Of a stretch of 64,000 bases of DNA, positions 4,190-59,273 are shown piece by piece; position 1 is the stretch's first letter, and each line of letters opens with the position of its first letter. Both the position numbers and the translations under genes were made by a program. The notes under the pieces were generated by a model. It was not told where the DNA came from. It worked only from the letters and a program-made list of their open reading frames with translations, and did not search any database. The DNA lies in NCBI RefSeq assembly GCF_002159335.1, contig NZ_NFHP01000003.1, positions 1 through 64,000 on the forward strand, read 5' to 3'. This stretch comes from Collinsella sp. An7 (GTDB taxonomy: Bacteria; Actinomycetota; Coriobacteriia; Coriobacteriales; Coriobacteriaceae).

Positions 4190-7096
4190 CTACAGCGCGT
4201 CGGTGCGCAGCGACTCCACGATGCTCGCGCTCTTGCTCTTGGTGAGCGCATAGATGCAGCTCACGATGATGATCGCCACCACCACGATGCCGGCGATCAG
4301 GATCTCCCGCCACGGCACGGTGAGCGCGTAGGTCGCAAAGGACTGGCTCATGGTGTTGGCGAGGAGCGCTGTGACCCCAAGCCCCAGCGCAAGGCCGATG
4401 GCAAAACCGCGCAGCGCATAGCTCGTACACTCGTAGGCGATCATCCGCCTAAAGGCGCGGTTGCCCATGCCGATGGACTTGAGCACCGCAAACTCGCGGC
4501 GGCGCAGGATGAGCGAGTTGGTGAGGGTGTTAAAGACGTTCGTCACGGCGATGAGCCCGCAGATGACGGTAAAGCAGTAGATAAAAGTCTGCACCGTGTC
4601 GGCCATCATCCGCGTCTGCATCTTGGCGGCGGCGTAGTTGGTATAGGCGCAGTCGAGCTCGGGGTAGCCCTCGGCAATGGTGGAGATGGCGTCCTCGGCG
4701 CGTGACGCCGCGTCGCCGGAGCCGGCGCAGTCAAAGTTCATCCATGCGTTGCCAAAGCCCATGGTGCGGGTGAGGTCGATGGCCGAGAGGGGCAGGATGA
4801 GCGTGAGCGCGCGTCCGTGCGCGACGAGGCCTGTGGGCGCGGCGTCGGCAAGGGCGCCCACCTCGATGGAGTCGGAGGTGGCGATCGCTTGACCGAGCGG
4901 GACAAACTGCTCCGATCCGTCGGGTGCGTTGTACCACACGGCGCGCTCGCCGTTCTCGTCGGAGACCACGCCGCCCGCATAGAAGCCGTCCAGGTTTGCG
5001 AACGACAGGCTCTCGATCTGGCCGGTGGCCGAGATGGGCGAGTAGCTCGAGTAGATGCCCGCGTCGTTGACGTCGTAGCGGTTGAGGGCGATGGCGCGCG
5101 GTGCGGCCAGGTCACAGAACTCCTTGGCCGAGAGACCCTGCTCCTCCACGTAGGAGCGCCACAGGGCATCGTCGAGGTACTCCACGTAGACGGGACCCGA
5201 CCAGCCGCCGTCTTGGAGCATGGTGCCAAAGAATTGCGCCGAGCCGCTCGCGCTGACCATGTTGGCGGGGATAAGGGCGTCGGCGATGTAGGTCATGCCG
5301 TAGCCAACCTGGCGCGCGCCCTCGATATCGGCTGTGTCGCCGGCCAAGCGCTCGAGTGCTCGGGCGATGCCCGCGTTGTCGTAGGTGCCGTCCTCGCGCA
5401 GGAGCGCCCCGTCTGTACCGGCCGATGCCGTAGCGTCGATCCGCACCGAGAGGTCGACGCTCTCCACCGTGTTAAGCGCGGTGGAGCTTGCGTAGCCAAG
5501 GACGTTGGCGATGCTCCCCGAGATGATGAGGAGCGCGACCGAGATGGCAAGGGCGGAGACCGTCACGCGGCCCTTGGAGGTGCTCCGCGAGAGGTTGCGG
5601 TGGGCGACAAAGCCGGGCACGCCAAAGAGCCGGGCGGAAAGACCGCGCGGGCGGGCGGCGAGCTCGTCGGGTGTCTCGACTTTGGCGCGGCGGGCGGTAC
5701 GGGTGAGCTTGCGGCGAGCACGCCCGGTGAGGCGCACGTCCTGCGTTTGGCGGATGGCGTCCACGGCCGAGACGCGGCTCGCGCGGCGGGCAGGGAGCCA
5801 GGCGCTTACGAGGAGCGTCGCCAGGGCGAGGGCCGCCGAGAGGGCGATGGCCACAGGGTCCACCACCACGCGCACCTCCACGCCATAGGTGTTGACGTCA
5901 AACATCGCGGCAAGGCCCTCACCGGTGCAGGTAAAGACAACGAGGCAGCCGAGGAGTCCGAGCGCGATGCCGAGGGGGATGCCGATGGCGCCGAGTACGA
6001 GCGACTCGGTGAGGACAGTGCGGCGGAGCTGCCGGCGGCTCGCGCCGAGGGACGAGAGGAGCCCGAACTGCCGCGTGCGCTCGGCCACCGAGATGGCAAA
6101 AGCGTTGTAGACGAGCGAGATGCCCGCGACGAGGATGACCGCGGCAAGGATGGCGGCGATGCCGTAGAGGGTGTCCCAGATGTCGGCCGAGCCGGTGACG
6201 CCCTGCCAGCGCAGGAGCGTGTTGTGTGTCACCACGCCGCCTTGGGCAAGGTCGTCAGTCTCGGTGAGCTCGGCGGTAACGGCGTCGACGTCGGCGGCGC
6301 GCTTGAGCGAGAAGAGCGAGGAGACGGTCGTTGCCGGCGCGTCGTCCACAAGGGCGGCTGCCGCAGCCGTGCCGTCGTCGTAGGTGTAGAGGCAGTTGCC
6401 GCCGAGCGCGCGCGTGGCGGAGAAGCCGTAGGAGCGGTAGAAGCCAACGACGGTATAGGCGCGCGTGCCGAGGTCGGGCGTAAAGGAGTTCTCGGTGGTC
6501 TCGTCATCATAATAGGAGCCGATGTCGGAGGTGCCGGTGACGGTTTGCTCTTCACCCGTGTCGGAATCGACAAAGCGCACCGTGCGCGTGCCGAGCTCCG
6601 CGGTGAGGGTGCTGCCCACGCTGATGGGGCCCGTGCTGGTAAGACCGCAGGGCGCGAGCTCGACGCCGTCGAGGTAGTGGGGGAGGATGACCTCGCCGGG
6701 CGCCTCGGGCGCGCGGCCGGACTCGATCTTGGGCAGGGCGACGAGGTGGTCCGGGTCGTCGGCGGGCCACGTCTTGGCAAAGAGCCAGTTGCCGTAGTCG
6801 GCAGCGTTCTCGCTCCCGAGGTCGATGGTGCCCAGCTCGGCGACCTCAAGATGGTCGGCGATGCGGTCGTCGTCCTCGATAAACGAGAGCCCCTGCTCGC
6901 TGAGCCCGGCGGCTTCCACCTGCCAGGTGCCCTCGTCTGCGGCGGTGCGTTCGGCAAGGAGGGTCTGGATGCTCACCACGCTCGTGAGCACTGCGGTGAT
7001 GAGCGCGCAGGAGAGCGCGATGCCGATGACCGATACGATGGTGCGCGTGCGGTTTTTGGCGAGCGACCGCAGGGCAAAACGCGAGAAGACGCTCAT
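4190..7096 (-). CDS. MacB/FtsX-type ABC transporter permease
   Basis: This 968-residue permease has an N-terminal helix (about 18-40) followed by a large extracytoplasmic domain. Its first FtsX-like module lies near residues 305-430 (three helices, including [19 protein letters not shown] before the linker). After a basic cytoplasmic linker comes a second helix and extracytoplasmic domain, and a second FtsX module near residues 845-965. Two FtsX modules in one chain match the large permeases in actinobacterial and firmicute ATPase-permease pairs. Such MacB-like systems act mechanically on envelope or periplasmic substrates. The ATG follows GGAGG and comes immediately after the ATPase stop codon. 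The substrate is unknown. Confidence 0.9.
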
Positions 7097-7867
7097 TTAC
7101 CGCACCTCCTGCCCAAGGGGGTTGGCTGGGGACGTGTTCCGTTCATCCCCTCTGGGGGCGGCGGCACTTCGGGCAAGAGGGGGCGCGGTGCGGCGGCGCT
7201 CGTCGCGCACCAAGCGTCCGTCCTCGATGGCAAGGACGCGGTCGGCCTGCAGGGCGATATCCTCGTCGTGGGTGATCACGATGAGCGTCTGCTTGAGCTG
7301 GCGGTTAGAGTCGCGCAGAAGCTGCATGATCTCGGTCGAGTTCTTGGAGTCGAGGTTGCCCGTGGGCTCGTCGGCAAGCACCACGGCGGGCGCGTTCATG
7401 AGGGCGCGGCCGATGGCGACCCGCTGCTGCTGCCCGCCCGAGAGCTGGTTGGGGAGGGCGTGCTCGCGGCCCGTGAGTTTGAGCGCGCGGAGGAGCATCT
7501 CAAGGCGCCGTGCGTTGACCTCTCGGCCGTCCATGCGCACGGGGAGCGTCATGTTCTCTACCACGTCGAGCACGGGGATGAGGTTGTAGAACTGGTAGAC
7601 GAGGCCGACCTCTCGGCGGCGAAAGACGGCAAGCTCCTCGTCCGTGCGGGCGAAGATGTCCTGTCCCTGGAGCCGTACGGTGCCCGAGGTGGGTCGGTCG
7701 ACGCCGCCCATGAGGTGCAGGAGGGTGGACTTGCCGGAGCCGGAGCTCCCGATGATGGCGATAAACTCACCCGCCTCGACGCTGAACGAGACGTCATCGA
7801 GCGCTCGGACGGCAGTGGGGCCGGAGCCGTAGACGCGGGTGAGGTGCTCCACGGTAAGGATGTTCAT
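7097..7867 (-). CDS. ABC transporter ATP-binding protein (LolD/MacB type)
   Basis: This 256-residue ATPase is complete. Walker [10 protein letters not shown] lies at about 40-48, a Q-loop follows in [19 protein letters not shown], the signature is [15 protein letters not shown], Walker B is [14 protein letters not shown], and the H-loop is in LIVITHDED. The segment [11 protein letters not shown] and the [10 protein letters not shown] box are typical of LolD/MacB-type ATPases that partner FtsX permeases. I chose ATG at 7867 because GAAGGGAA precedes it; an in-frame ATG at 7915 would add 16 residues ahead of the family's conserved N-terminus. The stop TAA directly touches the permease ATG. Confidence 0.92.
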
Positions 7868-7893
7868 GGCGTTCCCTTCGCTTGCGGGGGACA

Positions 7894-7937
7894 GGTCACC
7901 TACCATAGTGGACAAGGCGCCTTGCCGCTAGGTGACC
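7894..7937. promoter_or_regulatory. Inverted repeat in the leader of the ABC transporter operon
   Basis: GGTCACCTA (7894-7902) and TAGGTGACC (7929-7937) are perfect 9-bp inverted copies separated by 26 bases that contain a second palindrome, AAGGCGCCTT (7914-7923). They lie between the candidate promoter (7964-7991) and the ATPase start. They could be a pair of regulator half-sites or a leader-RNA stem-loop. Confidence 0.5.
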
Positions 7938-7963
7938 GCCGCATGACACATCCGTCACATCCA

Positions 7964-7991
7964 AAGATACCCTCGCTGTATGACAGACAAA
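7964..7991 (-). promoter_or_regulatory. Candidate promoter of the ABC transporter operon
   Basis: On the minus strand TTTGTC (7986-7991), a 16-base spacer and TATCTT (7964-7969) lie about 95 bases before the ATPase start. The hexamers are only moderate matches. The 8063 gene on the other strand must have its own promoter in the same short gap. Confidence 0.35.
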
Positions 7992-8062: not shown

Positions 8063-8500
8063 ATGATGAGGACCTCAAGAAGAGCTAAGCTGATTGCAGT
8101 TGCTGCTGGCGTGGCGCTGTTGCTGGGAGGTGGCACCGCTTATGCCGACAGCATCGAACCCTTTGCCATTACTCCCCAGTGGACAACCCGCTCCATCAAC
8201 ATCGGGCGTGTTGGGACATCGTGGGCGGGGGATGGAACGAAGTCTCTCACTTCGAGCAGCTATGGCCAGGCCACAGTTACTCGTGCATCTGGTGTTTCTG
8301 CCAGCAATGCTCTTCAGGTATCGGCGCGCAACAGCTCGGGAGACCTCCAGTACCCTTCACGCATCACTGCTTCCGGTCAAACGGTAACTTATATTCGAAA
8401 CACTTTTGGAGGAACCATTACCTTTACGCCGAGCATGCGGGCATCCTCTGGGACCATTTCGAATATCGGTGGTACGTGGCGGTATTACGAGATGCCGTAA
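8063..8500 (+). CDS. Small secreted protein of unknown family
   Basis: This 145-residue protein has a textbook signal peptide: basic start (MMRTSRRAK), hydrophobic core (LIAVAAGVALLLGGG) and a probable cleavage site after AYA at about residue 28. The mature part of about 117 residues is rich in Ser, Thr, Gly and Asn, has no cysteine, and alternates polar and beta-branched residues, suggesting an all-beta fold. It ends abruptly in a Trp-Arg-Tyr-Tyr segment. I do not recognise the family. It is the first gene of a plus-strand set with a membrane protein, an ABC exporter-like fusion and a membrane regulator, so it may be exported cargo, a bacteriocin-like factor or a sensor ligand. Codon use is less G+C-biased than in flanking genes. 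An inverted repeat, GTCCTC/GAGGAC (8025-8045), lies just upstream. Confidence 0.75.
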   Translation: MMRTSRRAKLIAVAAGVALLLGGGTAYADSIEPFAITPQWTTRSINIGRVGTSWAGDGTKSLTSSSYGQATVTRASGVSASNALQVSARNSSGDLQYPSRITASGQTVTYIRNTFGGTITFTPSMRASSGTISNIGGTWRYYEMP

Positions 8501-8515
8501 GGCGCGGGGTGCGGT

Positions 8516-9376
8516 ATGAGGCGATCACTCGGTTGCTCGGTTCTTGGTAATCCATCGCTTCGCGATATGGTGCGTCCCGTCCCCGTAGTGCTGGTTGTGG
8601 CAGTCATCGTGCTCGTCGTGCGGGATGCCCTCGATATCGTTACGTCGTTCTACACTTGGACACCGGATACGGGCGATATCTTTGGATGGAATTTACCGCC
8701 GCTCCTGGTTGCCTCGCAGATACTGTCTAACTCATTCGTTTGCTGGTTGGGAGCTCCTCTGTCGTTGCTTATTCGCGTTCGGCGGGAGCTCCCTCCCCGC
8801 ATGCAACAGCAGCTCATCTCCCAAGGGGCGCCCGAGCATGGTCTCATGTGCGCTTTGGTGCGCGTGACACTCTTGCATGCACTGCTCTTCTGGCTTATCT
8901 GCGCGGTCCTCTCAGCCGCGCTTGCCTTCTTAACGTGTCGAGGCAGTTTTGACCCCACTTATATCGACCTTCTCTCCGAAGCGGGCATTCCATTGCCACC
9001 TGGACCGTTGCCGGTCTCGTGTACCGTCCTCAGTGCGGTCACGGCTATTCCGCCCATGTTGTCGTCTCTTGCGGCGCTTGCGGTCATCCAGGCATTCGGA
9101 AGCTTCGCCGTCGCTTGTGCTATTTCGCCGATGCTGTATCTGGCGAAAATGGTTTTGCCGATCATCACGCAGGTAACCCCGTCTCGATTCGGAGTCATCG
9201 TCATGCACCTCGCTACATGGCTTGCCTCGTTCAACACTTTTCAAATCTCATATGGGGGTGCGTCCGAGTTCTCTGCTGCCCTTGTTGCTGGTGTTGCGCG
9301 AGCGATTTTGCTGGCCGTCCTGCTTATCGGCACATCCGTCCATCTCAACCGTGCCATTGTTCGGAGGAGACTTTGA
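8516..9376 (+). CDS. Polytopic membrane protein, probable ABC-2-like permease subunit
   Basis: This 286-residue protein is predicted to have about six helices (roughly 18-40, 60-82, 118-140, 178-220, 230-250 and 255-277), with no recognisable soluble domain. It begins 15 bases after the secreted-protein gene. Its stop overlaps the next gene's start (ATGA at 9374-9378), so it is almost certainly translated with the permease-ATPase fusion that follows. Size and layout resemble ABC-2-type permease subunits encoded beside lantibiotic-immunity or small-peptide exporter ATPases. I cannot assign a named family from sequence alone. A later start at codon 19 (8570) is possible. Confidence 0.7.
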   Translation: MRRSLGCSVLGNPSLRDMVRPVPVVLVVAVIVLVVRDALDIVTSFYTWTPDTGDIFGWNLPPLLVASQILSNSFVCWLGAPLSLLIRVRRELPPRMQQQLISQGAPEHGLMCALVRVTLLHALLFWLICAVLSAALAFLTCRGSFDPTYIDLLSEAGIPLPPGPLPVSCTVLSAVTAIPPMLSSLAALAVIQAFGSFAVACAISPMLYLAKMVLPIITQVTPSRFGVIVMHLATWLASFNTFQISYGGASEFSAALVAGVARAILLAVLLIGTSVHLNRAIVRRRL

Positions 9377-11253
9377 TGTGGGCTACTGGTCGACGATGTG
9401 CGTGCTTTGAGCTACGGCGCATGCTCACTCCGGTGCGCCTTATGTTTGCTGCGGCGATAATCGTCTGGATCGGAATTCTTGCCTATCAAGATCTGGTAAC
9501 CCTGCAGCTTGCTCGTGGGGGAGTTTTGGAGGGGTCTACCGTTTGGGATGTGTTCTATCTCGCGCTCAACAATGAATGGTGCTGTACCCTTCTGTTCCCG
9601 CTTGGTGTCCTTGTTGTTGCGGGGGATACGGTGTCACGCGATCAAGGTGGAGCTGTTTCTGCGTTTGCTGTCTCGCGCGGCGAGCACGTTGGGCGTATTG
9701 CAGCGGGCAAAATCGCTGCCGTCGTAATCTGCGGCATCGCGTTTAGCGCGGTGACCTGTGTCTCACTTGCGGTATTTGATGCTCTTGCATTTCACACACC
9801 ACTCTCGTGTCGTGCGGTTCCTGATTGGCTCTCCTATTCAGGGGACACCGACACGTATCTTCGAGCTGGTCCGCTCGTCTATGCGCTAATTCCCTCTACG
9901 TGGAGTTATGGGGCGCTTTTGGTGATGCTGGTGATATGCGAAGGCGCTCTATCCGGCATCATCGCGCTCTTCTTTATGGCGATTGCCCCGAGTAACCGTC
10001 TGCGCTACCTTCCGCTGCTCATTGACCTTGGGGTTGTTCTGGGCTTTACGGCGCTACCTAGTATCTGGGTCAAGTTGAGCTTCCTTATACGCGGCGGACC
10101 GGGTGCGTTGCCGGGTGGCGTCTCTGATGTCGGCATGGTGCTCGACCGATTTTGCTTGGCGAGTTACGTTTTGGGTGCAGGGTTTTGGCAAACCTCCGTA
10201 GGGGGACCCGCTTTGCTGGCTCAAGAGCTCTCGGTAAATCCCGGTCCATATCCAGAGGGATATCTTGAGTCGATTGCGCAAGGATACGCTGTTAACAGCT
10301 TCGGGTCTCTTGTCATCTTATGTGCAGTTATGTTTGTATTTTCAATACTCCGTATCGATGGGGCGGTACGTTCGTCGTGTCAAAAAATGGACAGCGGGCG
10401 GAGGAGGTTCAGCATGAGCCGTGGAGAGCAACGTGGGTCATTTGCATCGTTGCTGCGATCTGTTGAGGGTGGTCCGCGTCGGGCCCTAGGTCCCGGGCAT
10501 CCCAAAACACCGCGTGGGGCACACTTTAGCTCCTTAGCTAAAAAACAGGTCTTGACATCACGTGAGCCCGTCGTTGACTTGACTGGCGTGACCGTTCGTT
10601 TTGGGCATCGTGCGATCTTTGAGGATGCGACATTTCAAGCCTCGCGGGGCGAGGTGGTTGGGCTTGTCGGAGAAAACGGCAGGGGAAAGACGACCCTCCT
10701 CATGGTGCTCGCCGGCCTTCTCGAACCCGATGAGGGGACAGGACACGTGCTTGAGAGGCCGCTTCGGAATCGACCGACGGGCGGCTGTGGTGTGCTCTTT
10801 GATAATCCCGCATTTATTGAGGAGCGTTCTGGGCTAGAGAACCTTACCATGTTTGCACAGTATTGCAGGCTGCGTTTAGAAACTGCGTCACCGCTGCTAC
10901 GTAAGGTGGGGCTTAACCCAGCAGATCGTAAGCCGGTGCACGCCTATTCCCTCGGTATGCGCAAGCGGCTCGCCTTCGCGCTTGCCACAATGGGCGATCC
11001 GCCGCTTTTGTTGCTCGATGAGCCCCTTAACGGCGTAGACCCCGTCGGCGTCGTTACCCTAAGAGAGCTCATCGCCGCTTATGCGAGGCGAGGCGGCACC
11101 GTAGTGATATCGAGTCATATGCTGGATGAACTGCAGCGGATCTGCGACAGGGTATATCTCGTAAAAGACCGGCAGCTTACCGAGATGGACTATCGTCGAG
11201 ATGCTCCGGGAGACCTTGAACGTGCATATCTGAGGCTTACGCGGCAAGGTTAG
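9376..11253 (+). CDS. ABC-2-like permease fused to an ABC ATPase
   Basis: One open frame of 625 residues holds two parts. Residues about 1-335 are a six-helix ABC-2-like membrane domain. Residues about 395-625 are a complete ATPase: Walker A GENGRGKT, signature YSLGMRKRLAFA, Walker B PPLLLLDEPLNG and H-loop VVISSHMLDE. The SLGM signature variant is typical of the ATPases of lantibiotic-immunity and ABC-2 exporters. Permease and ATPase in one chain, permease first, is unusual for ABC-2 systems. Inside the frame, GGAGGAGG followed by ATG at 10414 could let a free ATPase be made as well. The frame is open upstream of 9376, but that part overlaps the 8516 gene; ATG at 9376 has GGAGGAGA upstream and a 1-base stop/start overlap. 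Confidence 0.8.
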   Translation: MWATGRRCACFELRRMLTPVRLMFAAAIIVWIGILAYQDLVTLQLARGGVLEGSTVWDVFYLALNNEWCCTLLFPLGVLVVAGDTVSRDQGGAVSAFAVSRGEHVGRIAAGKIAAVVICGIAFSAVTCVSLAVFDALAFHTPLSCRAVPDWLSYSGDTDTYLRAGPLVYALIPSTWSYGALLVMLVICEGALSGIIALFFMAIAPSNRLRYLPLLIDLGVVLGFTALPSIWVKLSFLIRGGPGALPGGVSDVGMVLDRFCLASYVLGAGFWQTSVGGPALLAQELSVNPGPYPEGYLESIAQGYAVNSFGSLVILCAVMFVFSILRIDGAVRSSCQKMDSGRRRFSMSRGEQRGSFASLLRSVEGGPRRALGPGHPKTPRGAHFSSLAKKQVLTSREPVVDLTGVTVRFGHRAIFEDATFQASRGEVVGLVGENGRGKTTLLMVLAGLLEPDEGTGHVLERPLRNRPTGGCGVLFDNPAFIEERSGLENLTMFAQYCRLRLETASPLLRKVGLNPADRKPVHAYSLGMRKRLAFALATMGDPPLLLLDEPLNGVDPVGVVTLRELIAAYARRGGTVVISSHMLDELQRICDRVYLVKDRQLTEMDYRRDAPGDLERAYLRLTRQG

Positions 11254-11261
11254 TTGGGGAA

Positions 11262-13886
11262 ATGGGGGTTCTCGTGCGTATCGTTCTGCGCCGCATCGCC
11301 CTACTGATTTCGTTTGTCGCGCATTGCGCAACGCTCGCTATCCTTACCCTTCACGTGTTCTCCCTGTTCTCGGTGGTGCACGATGAGGGGGCAAGCATTG
11401 CGGGTTTTAGTCTTCTGTACGTTGGGGGGATTGCGGTATCCTCTGCGCCCTTGCTCCTCTTACCGTTTGGACTTGGGGTCGTGATGCGCGGCATTGGACG
11501 GCGTGCGCCTGATACTTTGAGTACAGATTCGAAGCTTCGCATGGCAGAAGTTGCGTATCTCGCCTGCGCCGTTGCGGCTTTAACCCCTGTGCCTAATCCT
11601 TTGCATAATCTTGGGGTCATTGGCCTCTCCTGTACCGCGGGCGCAGCGTTGACCCGGTGCGCGCGGTATCTTCTTTCGCTTTCCAGTCGGGGTAGCACTG
11701 TCGCTGTCCTTCTGGCGGCGGTAACAGTTGTGCTTTGCCTCGCGGCGCCCGTGCTCGTAGCGCTGATCGGCATAGTTGCGGGAACCTTACACGCGGCATT
11801 GCCCCCCGATCGTACGGGGGATGCCTTTGAAAAGCGTGCCGACATCCTCGCACCCGGTTTGCTTAAGGGGTTCGCAATTACTTTGTTGCTTGTTGTTATG
11901 CTCGCTATGTGCGCGTACCGGGACGATGTGGTTAGCGCTTCGTATCTTCAAACGTTGCAAGGCGCCATTGGAGTCCTTACCAGGGCTTGGGCATTGAGTG
12001 CCGCCGGGGTGCTCGACGCGGTAATCTTGATGCTCGTGAGGCAGGTTAAGGTGCTGCGTCCGAGTTTCGGGCTTGTCTGTGCGGTTCTGACGACAGCGTG
12101 CAGCTTGCTCCTTACGAGCCTTCGCTTCATCGACTATCTCATCCTTCTCGATATTCTCGCCGCCCTTCTGATTTCTTGCGAAGTGAACGGTGCTGGGCAG
12201 AAGACTGATGATCGCGACGGGCGGTCAGATAGCGTCTCATGGGTTCCCGCGTTGGCGGGGTTGGTATCGATGGGAAGGCCGCTGCTATATCCGCAGCTTC
12301 TTCTAGGCCAGTCGCCCTATGTGCTCTTGAGTTATCTTGTGCTTGCAGGTGGATGCCTTGCTCTACTGGCCTTCCTTTCCGTTTTGGCGTTACGGAGTGG
12401 TGGGGTGTTTGCGCAGCATGAGCTTGCGACGCTTGCAGACCTTTCGGAGCGCTCGGGGCTCACGCGGCGGGAGTACGAGGTGATGCGGGGCGTGGTTGCA
12501 GGCGTCTCGCTTCAGGGAATTGCTGCCCAATTGGGGATTGCTCGCGCCACTGCAGGCACATATGCGACGCGCGCCTATCGTAAGCTTGGCGTGAGCGACC
12601 GTGCTGGGATGTTGGAGATGGTGGCGGTGTACCCGGCGTCAGGGGAAACCGTGAAAGACGAGCGAAAAGAAACTCTGCGTGCGACGCGTACCTGTTTGCT
12701 GGCACTGTGGCGCGCGCGGGCAGTCATCATGGGGGTCGTTGAAGGGGGCATGGCCCTGTTCGGTACATGGGGCGTTCTTTCGGAGACGCCCCTTGGCAAG
12801 GGCGATCCATCGGGGACCTGCGTGTATGCGGTTGTTGCCGTTGGAGTTGGCTTGGCACTCGCAGCGGCGGGCGACGACTTGCCTTGGATGGACGACAACA
12901 ATCGCGTGGCACACAACATTACCTTGGGCGCGCTCGGTCTATGCACGGCGCTTGTGGTCCTTTTGAGCACCGGAAAACTTTGGGGTTCCGCACCTTTGGC
13001 CTCGATAGCCCTCATATCGCTTGTGATTTTAGGGATCTTGAGTGGTGCAGAGAGGTCGAAGCGATCGATTTGCTGGCGCGCTGCGGGTGTTGGAGCTGCG
13101 GTTTTCGCCATCATTGTACAACCCGATGCCGCTCCATTCCTGTTGACAATCGGCTGCGTAATCGCCGCGGTGCTTACATTAATCACGTTGCCCCAAGCAA
13201 ATGGACGAGGTGTTGACGGCGCGGATTGCGCTGCGTCGTCGCGGCAGCATGGAAATCGTCGGTTGCCGTTGCATCTTCAGACAGGGCTTACTCTTGGTGC
13301 GTTTGGTATGGTCGAGCTGCTCAGCTATCCGTTGGAGTCTAGTCGACCCTATTTTATTTTCCTGTGCGGAGAGCTCGTTTCCTGCAAGAGTTTTGCGGCT
13401 TGCATCCTTTCGGTGTTTGTCGTCGGTTTTGCAATCGTTCTGCTGGGCTTGATGCGTCGCCTGAATCTGCGGAGCGGTGCTCTAGCTCAAGAATTCGTCT
13501 TGCCTTGTGTGGTCGGTTGCATCTTTGGCGGAAGCTTGGGAACAGATGGATTGTTGAGGATTACGCAGGGGCAGCATGCCCTGCTTTGTCTTGGATTCAT
13601 GCTCGTTGGCGTGTTTGCAACGCTTGCTGCCATTTTTCGCATGGCTGGGCGGGAGGCCCAATCGGGTGCTACGGATGAGGAGCTCGTCGACCGCATTATT
13701 GATACTACCCCGCTTACCCGCGCTGAGGCACAGGTGGCGCTTCTGCTTGCGCGAGGTTGGAGCGCAAAGCGTATTGCAGAGTATCTTGTCATTTCACCGC
13801 AGACCGTGGCAACGCACCGCAAGCGCATCTACCGGAAATTAGGCGTTCATCGTCAGAGCGCGGTTGCTGATGCTCTCGACATGTGA
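11262..13886 (+). CDS. Membrane-embedded LuxR-type regulator with two HTH domains (tandem duplication)
   Basis: This 874-residue protein is built as [about ten transmembrane helices]-[LuxR HTH]-[helices]-[LuxR HTH]. The first HTH, near residues 399-452, has LTRREYEVMRGVVAG and ends YRKLGV. The second, near 816-874, has LTRAEAQVALLLARGWS and ends YRKLGVHRQSAV. Both keep the LTxxE start, the GxS/xxIAxxL turn and the KLGV end of GerE/LuxR domains. Single-HTH proteins with polytopic N-termini are a known abundant class in Coriobacteriia; the double-headed form looks like a head-to-tail duplication and could bind DNA as a built-in pseudodimer. The gene lies nine bases after the ABC fusion gene and probably controls it. 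Its TGA stop is the first three bases of the hairpin at 13884. Confidence 0.85.
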   Translation: MGVLVRIVLRRIALLISFVAHCATLAILTLHVFSLFSVVHDEGASIAGFSLLYVGGIAVSSAPLLLLPFGLGVVMRGIGRRAPDTLSTDSKLRMAEVAYLACAVAALTPVPNPLHNLGVIGLSCTAGAALTRCARYLLSLSSRGSTVAVLLAAVTVVLCLAAPVLVALIGIVAGTLHAALPPDRTGDAFEKRADILAPGLLKGFAITLLLVVMLAMCAYRDDVVSASYLQTLQGAIGVLTRAWALSAAGVLDAVILMLVRQVKVLRPSFGLVCAVLTTACSLLLTSLRFIDYLILLDILAALLISCEVNGAGQKTDDRDGRSDSVSWVPALAGLVSMGRPLLYPQLLLGQSPYVLLSYLVLAGGCLALLAFLSVLALRSGGVFAQHELATLADLSERSGLTRREYEVMRGVVAGVSLQGIAAQLGIARATAGTYATRAYRKLGVSDRAGMLEMVAVYPASGETVKDERKETLRATRTCLLALWRARAVIMGVVEGGMALFGTWGVLSETPLGKGDPSGTCVYAVVAVGVGLALAAAGDDLPWMDDNNRVAHNITLGALGLCTALVVLLSTGKLWGSAPLASIALISLVILGILSGAERSKRSICWRAAGVGAAVFAIIVQPDAAPFLLTIGCVIAAVLTLITLPQANGRGVDGADCAASSRQHGNRRLPLHLQTGLTLGAFGMVELLSYPLESSRPYFIFLCGELVSCKSFAACILSVFVVGFAIVLLGLMRRLNLRSGALAQEFVLPCVVGCIFGGSLGTDGLLRITQGQHALLCLGFMLVGVFATLAAIFRMAGREAQSGATDEELVDRIIDTTPLTRAEAQVALLLARGWSAKRIAEYLVISPQTVATHRKRIYRKLGVHRQSAVADALDM

Positions 13887-13939
13887 CAATGGAGACAGGT
13901 TATGTTGTCGCGTGACAACATAACCTGTCCTCATTGTCA
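13884..13939. repeat. Paired-palindrome element R4, between convergent genes
   Basis: Two 26-base arms with two mismatches flank the centre GCGT. Each arm begins TGACAATG, carries a GACAGGT core and ends TTGTC. The left TGA (13884-13886) is the stop codon of the double-HTH regulator. The right end, read on the minus strand, is the TGA stop of the histidine kinase (13937-13939). The layout matches elements at 26793, 30861 and 51451 with different arm sequences. It resembles REPIN-type paired REP elements and may act as a two-way terminator. Confidence 0.85.
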
Positions 13940-15001
13940 TACGGCGAGGTCTTTGAAGAAGGTGAAGGTAAAGCGCGCCCCGGTGACGCGACCGGCATTG
14001 TCGCAGGCGTTTTCGGCGGTGAGGGTGCCGCCCTGGGCCGATACGAGCGCGCGGGCGAGCGAAAGCCCGATGCCCACGCCTGCGGGATTGACCTCGCTGC
14101 TGGCTCCGTTCTCACCCGCGCCGCGTTCGCCCCGGTAGAACCGCTCAAAGATATGGGGCAGGTCCTCCTCGGCAATGCCGGGCCCCGTGTCCTCCACGCT
14201 AATGCGGCAGGCGAGGATATCCTCCACCGCGCGTACGGTAACGCGCCCGCCCGCCGGCGTGTGCTCGAGGCAGTTCTTGAGGACGTTGCCGAGCGCCTCG
14301 GCTGTCCATGCAAGGTCGCCGGTAAAGGAGGCGCCTGGCTCGAGCTCGGTACCAAGCGTCACATCGGCAAGGTCGTAGGCAATGGCGAGGGGCGAGGCGG
14401 CCCGCTCCACAAGCTCATCTACGCTCACGGTCGCTTGGGCAAAGTCGAGCGCACCTGCATCGAGCCGCGCGAGGCGCAGCAGCACCGAGACGAGCTCCTC
14501 CACGCGCATCTCAAGTGCCTCGATGCGCCGCAGGCGCTCCACGAGCTCGGGCGCGTCACCGCGACGGGTGAGCTCCTTGCGCACAAGCTCGGTGGTGAGC
14601 GCAAGCGAGGTGAGGGGCGTCTTGAGTTGGTGGGAGATGTCGGCGAGGGCATCGGCGAGGGACTGCCGTTCGCGGGCGAGGTCCTCCGCCGTGCGTGTGA
14701 GGCGCGCGACCATCTTGTCGAGCTCGCTGGCAAGCACGGCAAGCTCGCCTTCCTCCATCTGCGAGAACGCGAGCTCGCGCTCTCCGGCGAGCACGGCGTC
14801 GAGTCGGCTTGCAAGACGGCGCAGCTCCCGGTAGCGCCAGACGGTGAGACAGAGGAAGGGGAGAGCGGTAATTGCAGACCCCACGGCAATGCCGAGGGCG
14901 ATATCGACCCGCCCGCACCAGAGGGCGCAGGTAGCGGCGAGGCCCGTCAGGATGAGCCAGACAAGGACGGCGCGGGCGAATTCACGGTTGCGGGCGAGCA
15001 T
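13937..15001 (-). CDS. Sensor histidine kinase
   Basis: This 354-residue kinase has two N-terminal helices (about 8-30 and 34-55) with almost no extracytoplasmic loop, so it probably senses within the membrane or through a partner. A HAMP-like linker follows. The HisKA H-box is ISHQLKTP near residue 122, the N-box NVLKNCLEHT, the G1 box DTGPGI, the F-box HIFERFYRG and the G2 box GVGIGLSLAR. All catalytic motifs are intact. It starts six bases after the response-regulator stop and forms its cognate pair. Its stop codon is supplied by the hairpin element at 13884-13939. Confidence 0.93.
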   Translation of the reverse strand: MLARNREFARAVLVWLILTGLAATCALWCGRVDIALGIAVGSAITALPFLCLTVWRYRELRRLASRLDAVLAGERELAFSQMEEGELAVLASELDKMVARLTRTAEDLARERQSLADALADISHQLKTPLTSLALTTELVRKELTRRGDAPELVERLRRIEALEMRVEELVSVLLRLARLDAGALDFAQATVSVDELVERAASPLAIAYDLADVTLGTELEPGASFTGDLAWTAEALGNVLKNCLEHTPAGGRVTVRAVEDILACRISVEDTGPGIAEEDLPHIFERFYRGERGAGENGASSEVNPAGVGIGLSLARALVSAQGGTLTAENACDNAGRVTGARFTFTFFKDLAV

Positions 15002-15007
15002 GACGGC

Positions 15008-15724
15008 CTACCCGATGGCCTTGTAGCCAAGCCCACGCACCGTGGTGATGAGCGCGGGGTGCGCGGGGTCGTCCTCGATCTTGTCGCGCAGGCGCTTGAT
15101 ATAGACGGTGAGGGTGTTCTCCTCGATGTAGGTGCCGGCGTCGTCCCATAGCGCATCGCGGATCTGATCGCGCGTGACGAGCTTGCCGGCGTTGGCGGCA
15201 AAGAGGAGGAGCAGCCGGTACTCAAGGGCCGAGAGCGCGATCTCGCGCCCAGCGCGCTCCACGTGAGCCCGGTCGGTGTCGATGGTAAGCGGTCCCAGCG
15301 TGAGCACGTGGCGCGTAGGCTGGGCACGGCGGATGGCGAGGGCGATGCGCGCCAAGAGCTCGCGAGGGCGGAAGGGCTTGGCGATGTAGTCGTCCGCTCC
15401 CAGTTCAAGGCCCGTTACCGTGGAGAACACGTCGCTCGACGCGGTGAGAAAGATCACAGGGAGCTCGGGCACGGCCTGCTTGAGGGCACCGCAGACGGCG
15501 AGGCCGTTACCCTCGGCAAGGGTGACATCGAGGAGCACCAGCTGGTAGGGCGTGGTCGCCGCCAACGCTCCGGTACTCGCGTGTACACCGCCTGCGAGGG
15601 CGCGATTGAGAGCGTCTGCCTGCGTGGCGGCGGTATCGACCGCGTAGCCCTCGCTCGCCAAGAGCTCGGAGAGCGCCTCGACGATCGTCGGGTCGTCCTC
15701 TACGAGCAGGATCCTCGTCTTCAC
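15008..15724 (-). CDS. OmpR/PhoB-family response regulator
   Basis: This 238-residue regulator has a receiver domain (about 1-125) with acidic pocket EDD near residues 9-11, phospho-acceptor Asp in VLLDVTL, the Ser switch in FLTASSD and Lys in YIAKPF. A winged-helix DNA-binding domain follows (about 140-238), ending in the typical LITTVRGLGYKAIG. The start is GTG at 15724, preceded by GGGAGG. An internal Ala/Gly-rich insert near residues 45-60 lengthens the receiver slightly. It lies 51 bases downstream of the LD-transpeptidase gene on the same strand and may share its transcript. Confidence 0.93.
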   Translation of the reverse strand: MKTRILLVEDDPTIVEALSELLASEGYAVDTAATQADALNRALAGGVHASTGALAATTPYQLVLLDVTLAEGNGLAVCGALKQAVPELPVIFLTASSDVFSTVTGLELGADDYIAKPFRPRELLARIALAIRRAQPTRHVLTLGPLTIDTDRAHVERAGREIALSALEYRLLLLFAANAGKLVTRDQIRDALWDDAGTYIEENTLTVYIKRLRDKIEDDPAHPALITTVRGLGYKAIG

Positions 15725-57810: not shown

Positions 57811-58128
57811 ATGGGTGTTGCGATTGAGCTTGAGAGCGAGCGATATCCGCTTACGGAGGCTAAGAACCGCTTTAGCGAGCTCACGAGGCAGGCTAATGCC
57901 ACGGGGCGGCCGTTTATGGTGCTGAAGGGGGGACGTCCCTGGGTGGAGGTTCGCCCGCTTCGCTCCGATGTGCGCGAAGATGCTGATGGAATCTCCATCA
58001 TGCCCGAGCATCGAAGTGTTGCGGTCGCCGACCTTTCGGAGCTCTTTGAAAGGTATGAGCAGCGTTCGGATGTCTACCGTCCGGTAGAAGACGCGTTTGC
58101 CTCTCCGGTTGGCGAGGAGGTGCTGTAA
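57811..58128 (+). CDS. Phd/YefM-like antitoxin
   Basis: This 105-residue protein begins with an N-terminal segment of Phd/YefM type: YPLTEAKNRFSELTRQANATGRPFMVLKGGRPWVEV, with the family's xxxTEAKxxFSELxxxxxxxxxPxxVxKxGxPxxxV pattern. This part should dimerise and bind DNA. The C-terminal half is acidic, as expected for a toxin-neutralising tail. ATG at 57811 is chosen; the frame is open to a TTG at 57784. It ends one base before the toxin start, giving tight coupling. Confidence 0.82.
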   Translation: MGVAIELESERYPLTEAKNRFSELTRQANATGRPFMVLKGGRPWVEVRPLRSDVREDADGISIMPEHRSVAVADLSELFERYEQRSDVYRPVEDAFASPVGEEVL

Positions 58129-58129
58129 C

Positions 58130-58504
58130 GTGGCCTTTCGATGCGGTGATGTGGTCTGGGCCGATTTGGACCCTGCCGTCGGGCACGAGCAGCGCAAGCG
58201 GAGACCGCTGATCGTGGTGAGCAATGATTCGTTCAACGAGCGGTGCTCGCTCACCATGACGATCCCCATCAGCTCGGCTGATACGGGATACCCGCTTCAT
58301 CTTGATGTAGGTAAGGTGCCCACCGAAAACGGAGAAAGCCCCGTGAGGGGTTTTGCGCAAATTGAGCAGCTTAAATCACTCGACCTCACCAACCGCAACG
58401 GCGTTAAGGTGGGCACCATCAACACTGCGGGCATGGACAAGATTCTCTCGCTCATCCTAGGCTGCCTCATCACCCCCGACATGATGGTGGTAAACGCCCG
58501 CTAA
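58130..58504 (+). CDS. MazF/PemK-like toxin
   Basis: This 124-residue protein starts FRCGDVVWADLDPAVGHEQ, the MazF/PemK beginning with the G-D-V/I-x-W/L-x-D-x-x-P-x-x-G-x-E-Q pattern. RRPLIVVSND follows. SLTMTIPIS supplies the Thr/Pro strand, and GFAQIEQLKSLD gives the conserved catalytic-region Q and the late strand. Such toxins are sequence-specific mRNA interferases. GTG at 58130 follows GGAGG. Pairing with a Phd-like rather than MazE-like antitoxin is a hybrid arrangement. Confidence 0.88.
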   Translation: MAFRCGDVVWADLDPAVGHEQRKRRPLIVVSNDSFNERCSLTMTIPISSADTGYPLHLDVGKVPTENGESPVRGFAQIEQLKSLDLTNRNGVKVGTINTAGMDKILSLILGCLITPDMMVVNAR

Positions 58505-58692
58505 GAGCCTAAAGGACGGCTATTTTTCATTGCGCAACACCGGGCAAGCCGAGATGGCATACGTAGCCCATCCAGCCAACGTCAACAGCCCAACATCTTC
58601 TCCTCTTCAATCTCAGAGTGCGCACGGCGAGCTATGTTTCAAGACCGAAGCAGAGCGCTCATGAGCAGGCCATGCGGCGAGCCGGGGGGGGG

Positions 58693-58781
58693 CGGCCGAG
58701 GGTGACGGAATCTTACGGAGCGAATCGCGAAGCGAGGCCTCTACGCCGCTGAGCCCCGCAAGATGCCGCCGCCCTCGGCCG
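58693..58781. repeat. Imperfect inverted repeat downstream of the toxin gene
   Basis: CGGCCGAGGG (58693-58702) and CCCTCGGCCG (58772-58781) form the outer stem, and pairing continues imperfectly for about 16 more bases each side. The loop region holds AGCGAATCGCGAAGCGAGG, which differs from the reverse complement of the 57539-57557 motif by only two bases. It occupies the 412-bp gap 58505-58916, which has no other feature I can support. Confidence 0.65.
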
Positions 58782-58916
58782 ATTCAGGTAGAATCCCGAG
58801 CCGGCGCAACCAACCGCGATTCCCTTGTGTATCTTTGCCAGCAGCCAAGCCATCGTAGTAAGATACTCTGGATTACTCCCACGTTATCGATGCCTTCGCA
58901 TCAGTTAGGAGATCCC

Positions 58917-59273
58917 GTGTCTGATACCATCACCGGCACACTCAGCGTCTCCAACGACGTCATCGCCGACATCGCGGGCTATGCCGCCCTTTCCTGCTAC
59001 GGTGTCGTGGGTATGGCCGAGCAGCTTCAGGGCGCCGAGAGCGTGCGCCTGCTTCCCGGGCAGCGTCTGCGCAAGGGCGTTCTCGTCACGAGCGATGAAG
59101 CGGGCCTGCGCGTCGATTTGCACGTGGTGCTCGAGAACGGCGTCAACATGAAGTCGGTCTGCGAGAACCTCTCGAGCGCGGTCGCGTTCACCCTGCAAGA
59201 GATCGCTCAGATCGACCCGGCGAAGCTTTCCGTCGGGATCCATATCGAAGCCCTCAAGAATCGCCTCGGCTAA
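58917..59273 (+). CDS. Asp23/Gls24-family envelope-stress protein
   Basis: This 118-residue protein shows the family pattern: G-T-L-S-V-S-N-D-V-I-A-D-I-A-G-Y-A-A near the start, a central GVVGMAEQL, a VTSDEAGLRVDLHVVLENG strand pair, and a C-terminal VGIHIEAL. It corresponds to B. subtilis YloU. GTG at 58917 has TAGGAG upstream; ATG at 58890 is an alternative that adds nine residues. It is followed by a DAK2-domain gene as in B. subtilis yloU-yloV. Confidence 0.9.
   Translation: MSDTITGTLSVSNDVIADIAGYAALSCYGVVGMAEQLQGAESVRLLPGQRLRKGVLVTSDEAGLRVDLHVVLENGVNMKSVCENLSSAVAFTLQEIAQIDPAKLSVGIHIEALKNRLG

Follow-up and report, generated by a model that had tools for sequence, protein, structure and literature searches.

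A cassette of four genes, designated M1 to M4 in plus-strand order, occupies positions 8063-13886 of a 64,000-nucleotide stretch of the genome of Collinsella sp. An7 (G000), referred to here as the window. The open reading frames (8063-8500, 8516-9376, 9376-11253 and 11262-13886) are separated by 15 nt, by a 1-nt TGATG overlap and by 8 nt, and their arrangement is therefore operon-like. The cassette lies between two resident gene pairs on the minus strand, and the locus comprises the following features:

4190-7867, minus strand: resident FtsX-type permease and ATPase, left flank; adjoins the kinase gene in congeners with an empty site
7958-7989, plus strand: conserved promoter/operator block CAAAGATACCCTCGCTGTATGACAGACA, with the core GCTGTATGACAGA at 7975-7987
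8063-8500, plus strand: M1, 145 aa, Sec-type signal peptide and all-beta mature domain (from sequence and AF2 model)
8516-9376, plus strand: M2, 286-aa integral membrane protein with an estimated 6 or so TM segments (from sequence), present in the system loci
9376-11253, plus strand: M3, ABC-2-like permease (residues ~1-345), linker and ABC ATPase (residues ~399-620; PF00005, 7.4e-25)
11262-13886, plus strand: M4, 874-aa double membrane LuxR protein with the order TM block, HTH1, TM block, HTH2 (two PF00196 matches)
12456-12620, plus strand: HTH1 (GerE) of M4 (PF00196, E 2.7e-12)
13710-13868, plus strand: HTH2 (GerE) of M4 (PF00196, E 3.1e-14)
13884-13939, no strand assigned: near-perfect inverted repeat with 25-bp arms between the convergent M4 and kinase genes (-38.7 kcal/mol, z -9.8)
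13937-15724, minus strand: resident histidine kinase and response regulator, right flank (from ORF calls, domain matches and congener comparison)

A preliminary description of the window had reported four tightly spaced plus-strand genes with less G or C at third codon positions, and the coordinates, spacing and composition bear out both statements. The GC3 values of M1, M2, M3 and M4 are 0.559, 0.622, 0.555 and 0.601, as against 0.849 ± 0.049 (minimum 0.774) for the 28 other genes of the window, which places the cassette genes at z -4.6 to -5.9; G+C per kb is 0.55-0.60 across the cassette and 0.64-0.69 in most flanking kb. A number of single-gene GC3 values at other loci, calculated on incorrect frames, were left out. 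A second G+C dip in the window, to 0.585, lies at 58001-59000. The absence of long antisense frames, also remarked upon earlier, is real, as the longest such frame over the cassette is ~203 aa compared with 1065 aa over the FtsX-ABC genes. It does not, however, count as an independent sign of insertion, because it is a result of the lower GC3.

The flanking minus-strand ATPase-permease and regulator-kinase pairs were correctly recognized in that description, as ORFs and domain matches confirm, and they provide the frame within which insertion can be judged. The resident kinase gene is present in seven of the eight congeners compared. In six congeners (G001-G005 and G007) the cassette is absent and only about 108-331 bp lie between the kinase gene and the ABC ATPase gene, while 'Candidatus Coprousia avicola' (G006, contig DVMF01000023) carries the cassette at the same site as G000. 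The flanks of G005, without the cassette, and of G006, with it, are 96% identical in nucleotide sequence right up to the junctions, and the short G005 spacer aligns, weakly, to the remaining empty sites; the empty site is thus probably the older state there, and the cassette probably entered the G006 lineage, by gain or by recombination. An unrooted tree of the flanks groups G000 with G005 and G006 with a support of 1.0. No repeats, target duplications, recombinase genes or mobile-element genes were seen at the junctions. Given six empty congeners and an aberrant GC3, the cassette is neither common to all close relatives nor of normal composition; it is an inserted, low-G+C, operon-like unit, as had been proposed.

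The same set of genes recurs elsewhere in the order. A permease profile built from five sequences and searched against 397 Coriobacteriales genomes identified 11 loci in 10 genomes, belonging to five genera and two families, with hosts that include Enorma massiliensis (two copies), an uncultured Olsenella and another Atopobiaceae MAG. M2, the permease, the ATPase and M4 are present in 11 of 11 loci. The ATPase and two LuxR HTHs adjoin the permease in every one, and the two HTHs share a single reading frame in all except G156, where an intervening stop leaves them in different frames, through either decay or sequencing error. M2 was detected by profile in eight loci, and a divergent ORF of 249-264 aa lies at the same position in the other three (G174, G176 and G178). 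The cassettes stand at unrelated places, next to genes for LDH, hydrogenase or carB, which upholds the earlier view of a self-contained unit. A tree of the permease and ATPase mixes the two families: the Atopobiaceae loci fall into two groups, one of them joined to Enorma, and this split, together with two deeply different Enorma copies, is consistent with transfer. Three more distant permease matches (G407, G474 and G479) proved to be unrelated ABC proteins without LuxR and were set aside. A search for M2 on plasmids found none, and a PADLOC search for anti-phage systems returned only generic ABC/AAA and HTH matches and no system-specific family.

The preliminary description had named a secreted protein, an ABC-2-like exporter and a membrane regulator among the products of the cassette; it overlooked the ATPase fused to the M3 permease and the second HTH of M4. 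M3 begins at the ATG at 9376, overlapping the M2 stop, and the longer GTG frame from 9019 is not its start. Its ATPase contains the Walker A motif GENGRGKTT, the signature YSLGM and an acidic residue at the Q-loop position. The Q-loop Gln is replaced in all 11 loci, by Glu in nine and by Asp in the two of the source genus, whereas the resident ATPase keeps Gln. ATPases of the LanFEG type have Glu in place of the Q-loop Gln (the E-loop). The best NCBIfam match of the M3 ATPase is TIGR03740, lantibiotic protection (4.6e-45, 154 bits), and this family is best for M3 and four relatives alike (five of five), the relatives scoring 147.6-154.4 bits and all five about half the cut-off of 309.75; the DrrA, NodI and GldA profiles match the cassette ATPases too. 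Since the nearest curated family is one of lantibiotic protection, a function in immunity or efflux is favoured. Each cassette encodes two membrane proteins, M2 and the permease, with an estimated number of helices and only weak matches to ABC2_membrane_4 or DUF2705; neither has a match to a curated LanE or LanG family. M2 itself matched no Pfam or NCBIfam family and is presumed, from its sequence and position, to be the second permease half. The permease-ATPase fusion is found only in G000 and G006, the two being separate genes in the other genera.

M4 combines, in each half, a block of hydrophobic segments (~10 in the N half and ~9 in the C half; 7-11 in relatives) with an HTH, and as read from its sequence it is two fused TM-LuxR units in one chain. 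The AF2 model is confident at the two HTHs only, the TM part being of low confidence (pLDDT 46). In an hhalign comparison of the two halves only the HTHs align (87 columns); an origin by tandem duplication is not proven, since the TM halves do not align. Frames with two GerE matches were rare beside many with a single match in a scan of 16 genomes, and no description of a double-HTH membrane LuxR form was found in the open-licence literature. Known LuxR regulators of Coriobacteriia with 10-12 TM segments include DadR, HcdR and CadR, and the accessible part of the paper that describes them makes no mention of a double form (PMC9734109). M4 belongs to the same bacterial class as these proteins and, like them, has a LuxR HTH placed after a membrane region, in M4 a predicted one, of several TM segments, but it has two TM+HTH units per chain and is linked to ABC and secreted-protein cassettes rather than to metabolic enzymes. 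It is not classed as an ordinary TM-LuxR, because these have a single C-terminal HTH and M4, like its relatives, has two GerE domains.

The block upstream of M1 is a candidate target of this regulator. A stretch of 33 bp is 97% identical between G000 and G006, as compared with only about 68% nucleotide identity of the cassette genes, and six independent lineages have the core GTAYGACAGAC ahead of the first gene, at a distance of 67-119 bp. The five lineages other than this one match the operator core at 9-12 of its 13 positions, with a summed score of 53/65 against a null of 44.2 ± 0.9 that reached this value in none of 200 shuffles. Two perfect matches to the core occur in the G000 genome; that at 7975-7987 is alone in a promoter position, and the other overlaps a start codon. 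Three near-matches in G000 were rejected, two of them at a gene start (ATGACAGAC.., MTD..) and one, mismatched, just before another gene. In a few loci a second TGTACGACA-like copy is found 32 bp upstream (G174, G176 and G217) or 22 bp upstream (G156 and G164). Such spacings correspond to roughly three and two turns of the helix and would fit either a two-headed regulator or a pair of dimers.

M1, the first gene of the operon, is the most variable part of the cassette. Its signal peptide, with n, h and c regions read from the sequence, has the n-region RTSRRAK and cleavage near TAYA/DS, leaving a mature part of ~116 aa. The AF2 model, from an alignment of 3 sequences, has eight strands with pLDDT ~65-85 across most of residues 40-145. 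Fold searches gave generic jelly-roll/TNF-like matches (Foldseek best E 2e-3; VIA Z at most 9.2, tied among unrelated proteins), and no function is therefore drawn from the fold. M1 is intact in two loci, decayed in a third and without a recognisable copy in eight of the 11, one of which (G178) ends at a contig edge. In G174 its homologue (29% identity, E 2e-12) leads the operon directly upstream of M2, and M1 homologues thus hold the same leading place in two families. The G006 copy retains its start and its last 50 codons, but a deletion has put them out of frame. Comparison of these 50 codons between G000 and G006 shows 36 differing sites, of which 26 are third positions, with 22 synonymous and 7 non-synonymous codons, and this third-position bias indicates that M1 was under purifying selection before its loss in G006. 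Sub-threshold matches to M1 in other families (E ~1e-3) were low-scoring, mostly interrupted or very long frames, and were discarded. The Sec signal of M1 makes it improbable that the ABC transporter exports this protein, and with eight of 11 loci lacking a recognisable M1 the system may be unrelated to it.

Among described systems, the cassette is most readily compared with LanFEG/CprABC, with which it shares one ATPase and two short TM proteins, TIGR03740 as the best curated match, and an operon with a dedicated sensor (PMC5786555). It differs in that its ATPase scores below the TIGR03740 cut-off, for which reason it is not filed as LanFEG, in that M2 is family-less and in that permease and ATPase are fused in the source genus; neither a two-component system nor genes for lanthipeptide biosynthesis were seen within it, its presumed sensor being the double TM-LuxR. 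By analogy, it would work like a LanFEG/Cpr resistance unit in which the two-component system has been replaced by a double TM-LuxR. In lactococcin 972-type clusters, too, a secreted protein with a signal peptide adjoins a permease and an ATPase (PMC7248182). However, M1 of G000 and of G174 gave no match to the lactococcin 972-type family in Pfam at E up to 10, mature M1 has ~116 aa versus 66, and the cassette ATPase scores 72.6 against a TIGR03608 cut-off of 254.85. M1 likewise matched no bacteriocin family, and its size exceeds that of typical bacteriocins. A further comparison is with cassettes of ABC genes and secreted proteins that have DUF2712, DUF5028 and DUF2705: one A1 permease member matches DUF2705 (1.2e-4), and a neighbouring type in G217 has all three weakly, with a LanF-like ATPase, under a double-HTH regulator; M1 does not match DUF2712. 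The earlier statement that no described system has these four parts holds within the families and literature searched.

Regulators with two LuxR HTHs in one frame also occur outside the pump system, at five loci (L094-L097 and L129) and at a sixth in G224 (L128:5958-8816), where the HTHs lie at both ends of one TM block (HTH-TM-HTH). A protein secreted by Sec or Tat adjoins the double-HTH gene in four of these six (L094, L096, L097 and L128). The genes in Enorma massiliensis (L094) and G164 (L097) are without a pump and stand beside small secreted proteins, and a further one without a pump is found in G006 (L095:4000-6855, C47). At L128 the regulator comes after two other products, one a secreted protein of Tat type and one thioredoxin-like; the sole match of the thioredoxin-like protein, to PedC/BrcD bacteriocin maturation, is insignificant (E 0.06). 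A full cassette is present in G217, of genus g3 (L096:7779-15548), with a double LuxR, a secreted protein (DUF2712, weak), two permeases (one DUF2705, weak), a LanF-like ATPase (180.9 bits to TIGR03740), a DUF5028-like protein and a C39-like peptidase; its GC3 is 0.53-0.62, most host genes being above 0.7. These associations point weakly, though all the same way, to bacteriocin-like secretion and immunity.

The analysis establishes the anatomy of the cassette, its insertion, the co-conservation of its genes and the conserved promoter element. Its recurrence in a few scattered relatives suggests an undescribed, self-regulated secretion or self-protection system. We infer the direction and substrate of the pump, the role of M4 as sensor and autoregulator, and that of M1 as toxin or signal. 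Together with both halves of M3, permease and ATPase, M2 would make up an exporter of the LanFEG/Cpr type that clears the membrane of a peptide-type agent, be it M1, processed M1 or a competitor's product. Within the membrane, M4 would sense this agent or the state of the transporter; with its two HTHs in one chain it would bind the GTAYGACAGAC element as a dimer and switch on its own operon. M1 would leave the cell through Sec and serve as a signal or as a bacteriocin-like protein. We give a probability of roughly 0.45 to the resulting picture, drawn from sequence comparison, of a horizontally moving, autoregulated cassette whose LanFEG-like pump protects against a peptide-type agent and whose M1 is a bacteriocin-like, easily lost partner. 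Where M1 has been lost, the pump and the switch are retained, which is what one would expect if they confer resistance by themselves. If the bacteriocin reading is true, gut Actinobacteria would have in this cassette a competition system that escapes searches by sequence family.

That most loci have the core without M1 also agrees with a stand-alone, Cpr-like module for antimicrobial-peptide resistance and sensing, in which pump and M4 would detect and expel foreign peptides and M1 would be a passenger or accessory surface protein; the ATPase is LanF-like, and CprABC-type resistance operons without biosynthesis genes have been described (PMC5786555). We consider this somewhat unlikely: in two families an M1 homologue occupies the leading position of the operon, and the C-terminal part of M1 has been held under strong selection. 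The persistence of the core without M1 weighs, in turn, against a signalling circuit in which M4 would sense M1 as a secreted pheromone or ligand and the pump would import, clear or present it in quorum or contact sensing. Such a circuit would bring together a secreted protein, a membrane sensor-regulator and a predicted autoregulatory promoter, as this unit does, and double-HTH regulators elsewhere likewise adjoin secreted proteins; known single-head relatives, however, respond to small metabolites (PMC9734109), and we regard the circuit as improbable. More improbable still is an ordinary metabolite or drug efflux transporter, unrelated to peptides or to M1, whose TM-LuxR would sense a metabolite as those of Eggerthella do. 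The DrrA, NodI and GldA matches speak for it, as does the mostly metabolite-linked character of the TM-LuxRs of Coriobacteriia (PMC9734109), but the two-permease layout, the acidic Q-loop and the best-hit family point to a LanF/BcrA-like group, and the association with M1 likewise argues against it.

Returning to the protective, autoregulated cassette, we tentatively suggest, as a broader and somewhat less probable proposal, that M4 may represent a new class of membrane transcription factor, in which two TM-LuxR units read a membrane or transporter signal as a covalent dimer and control, via a helically phased tandem GTAYGACA operator, a mobile, Coriobacteriales-specific system of a bacteriocin-like secreted protein and a pump. 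Membrane LuxR proteins are abundant in Coriobacteriia, and the defining paper could assign no function to >98% of their clusters (PMC9734109). The fixed ABC-pump partner, the predicted operator, the near-identical pairs with and without the cassette and the cultured host Enorma massiliensis make a non-metabolic TM-LuxR function directly testable.

The borders of the cassette carry further sequence elements. The inverted repeat at 13884-13939 is a probable bidirectional terminator. The 34-bp palindrome RCAGGTTATGTTGTCACGTGACAACATAACCTGY at 13895-13928 is one of eight dispersed genomic copies (at most 3 mismatches; control 0), the seven others being at other places in the G000 genome (contigs C1, C6, C11, C12 and C13), and these copies represent either a shared bidirectional terminator or a repeated palindromic element. 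On the left, upstream of the resident ABC ATPase, positions 7893-7950 contain GGTCACCTAC.. and GTGACA-N4-TGTCAC-like boxes that the insertion left intact; they are conserved genus-wide, including the empty sites of six congeners (L038-L043), and are likely a response-regulator site, as predicted from sequence. At the empty site of G001 (L042), repeated ACGCGAATAATCGCGTAC-type palindromes in the kinase-ATPase intergenic region lengthen the spacer by ~200 bp.
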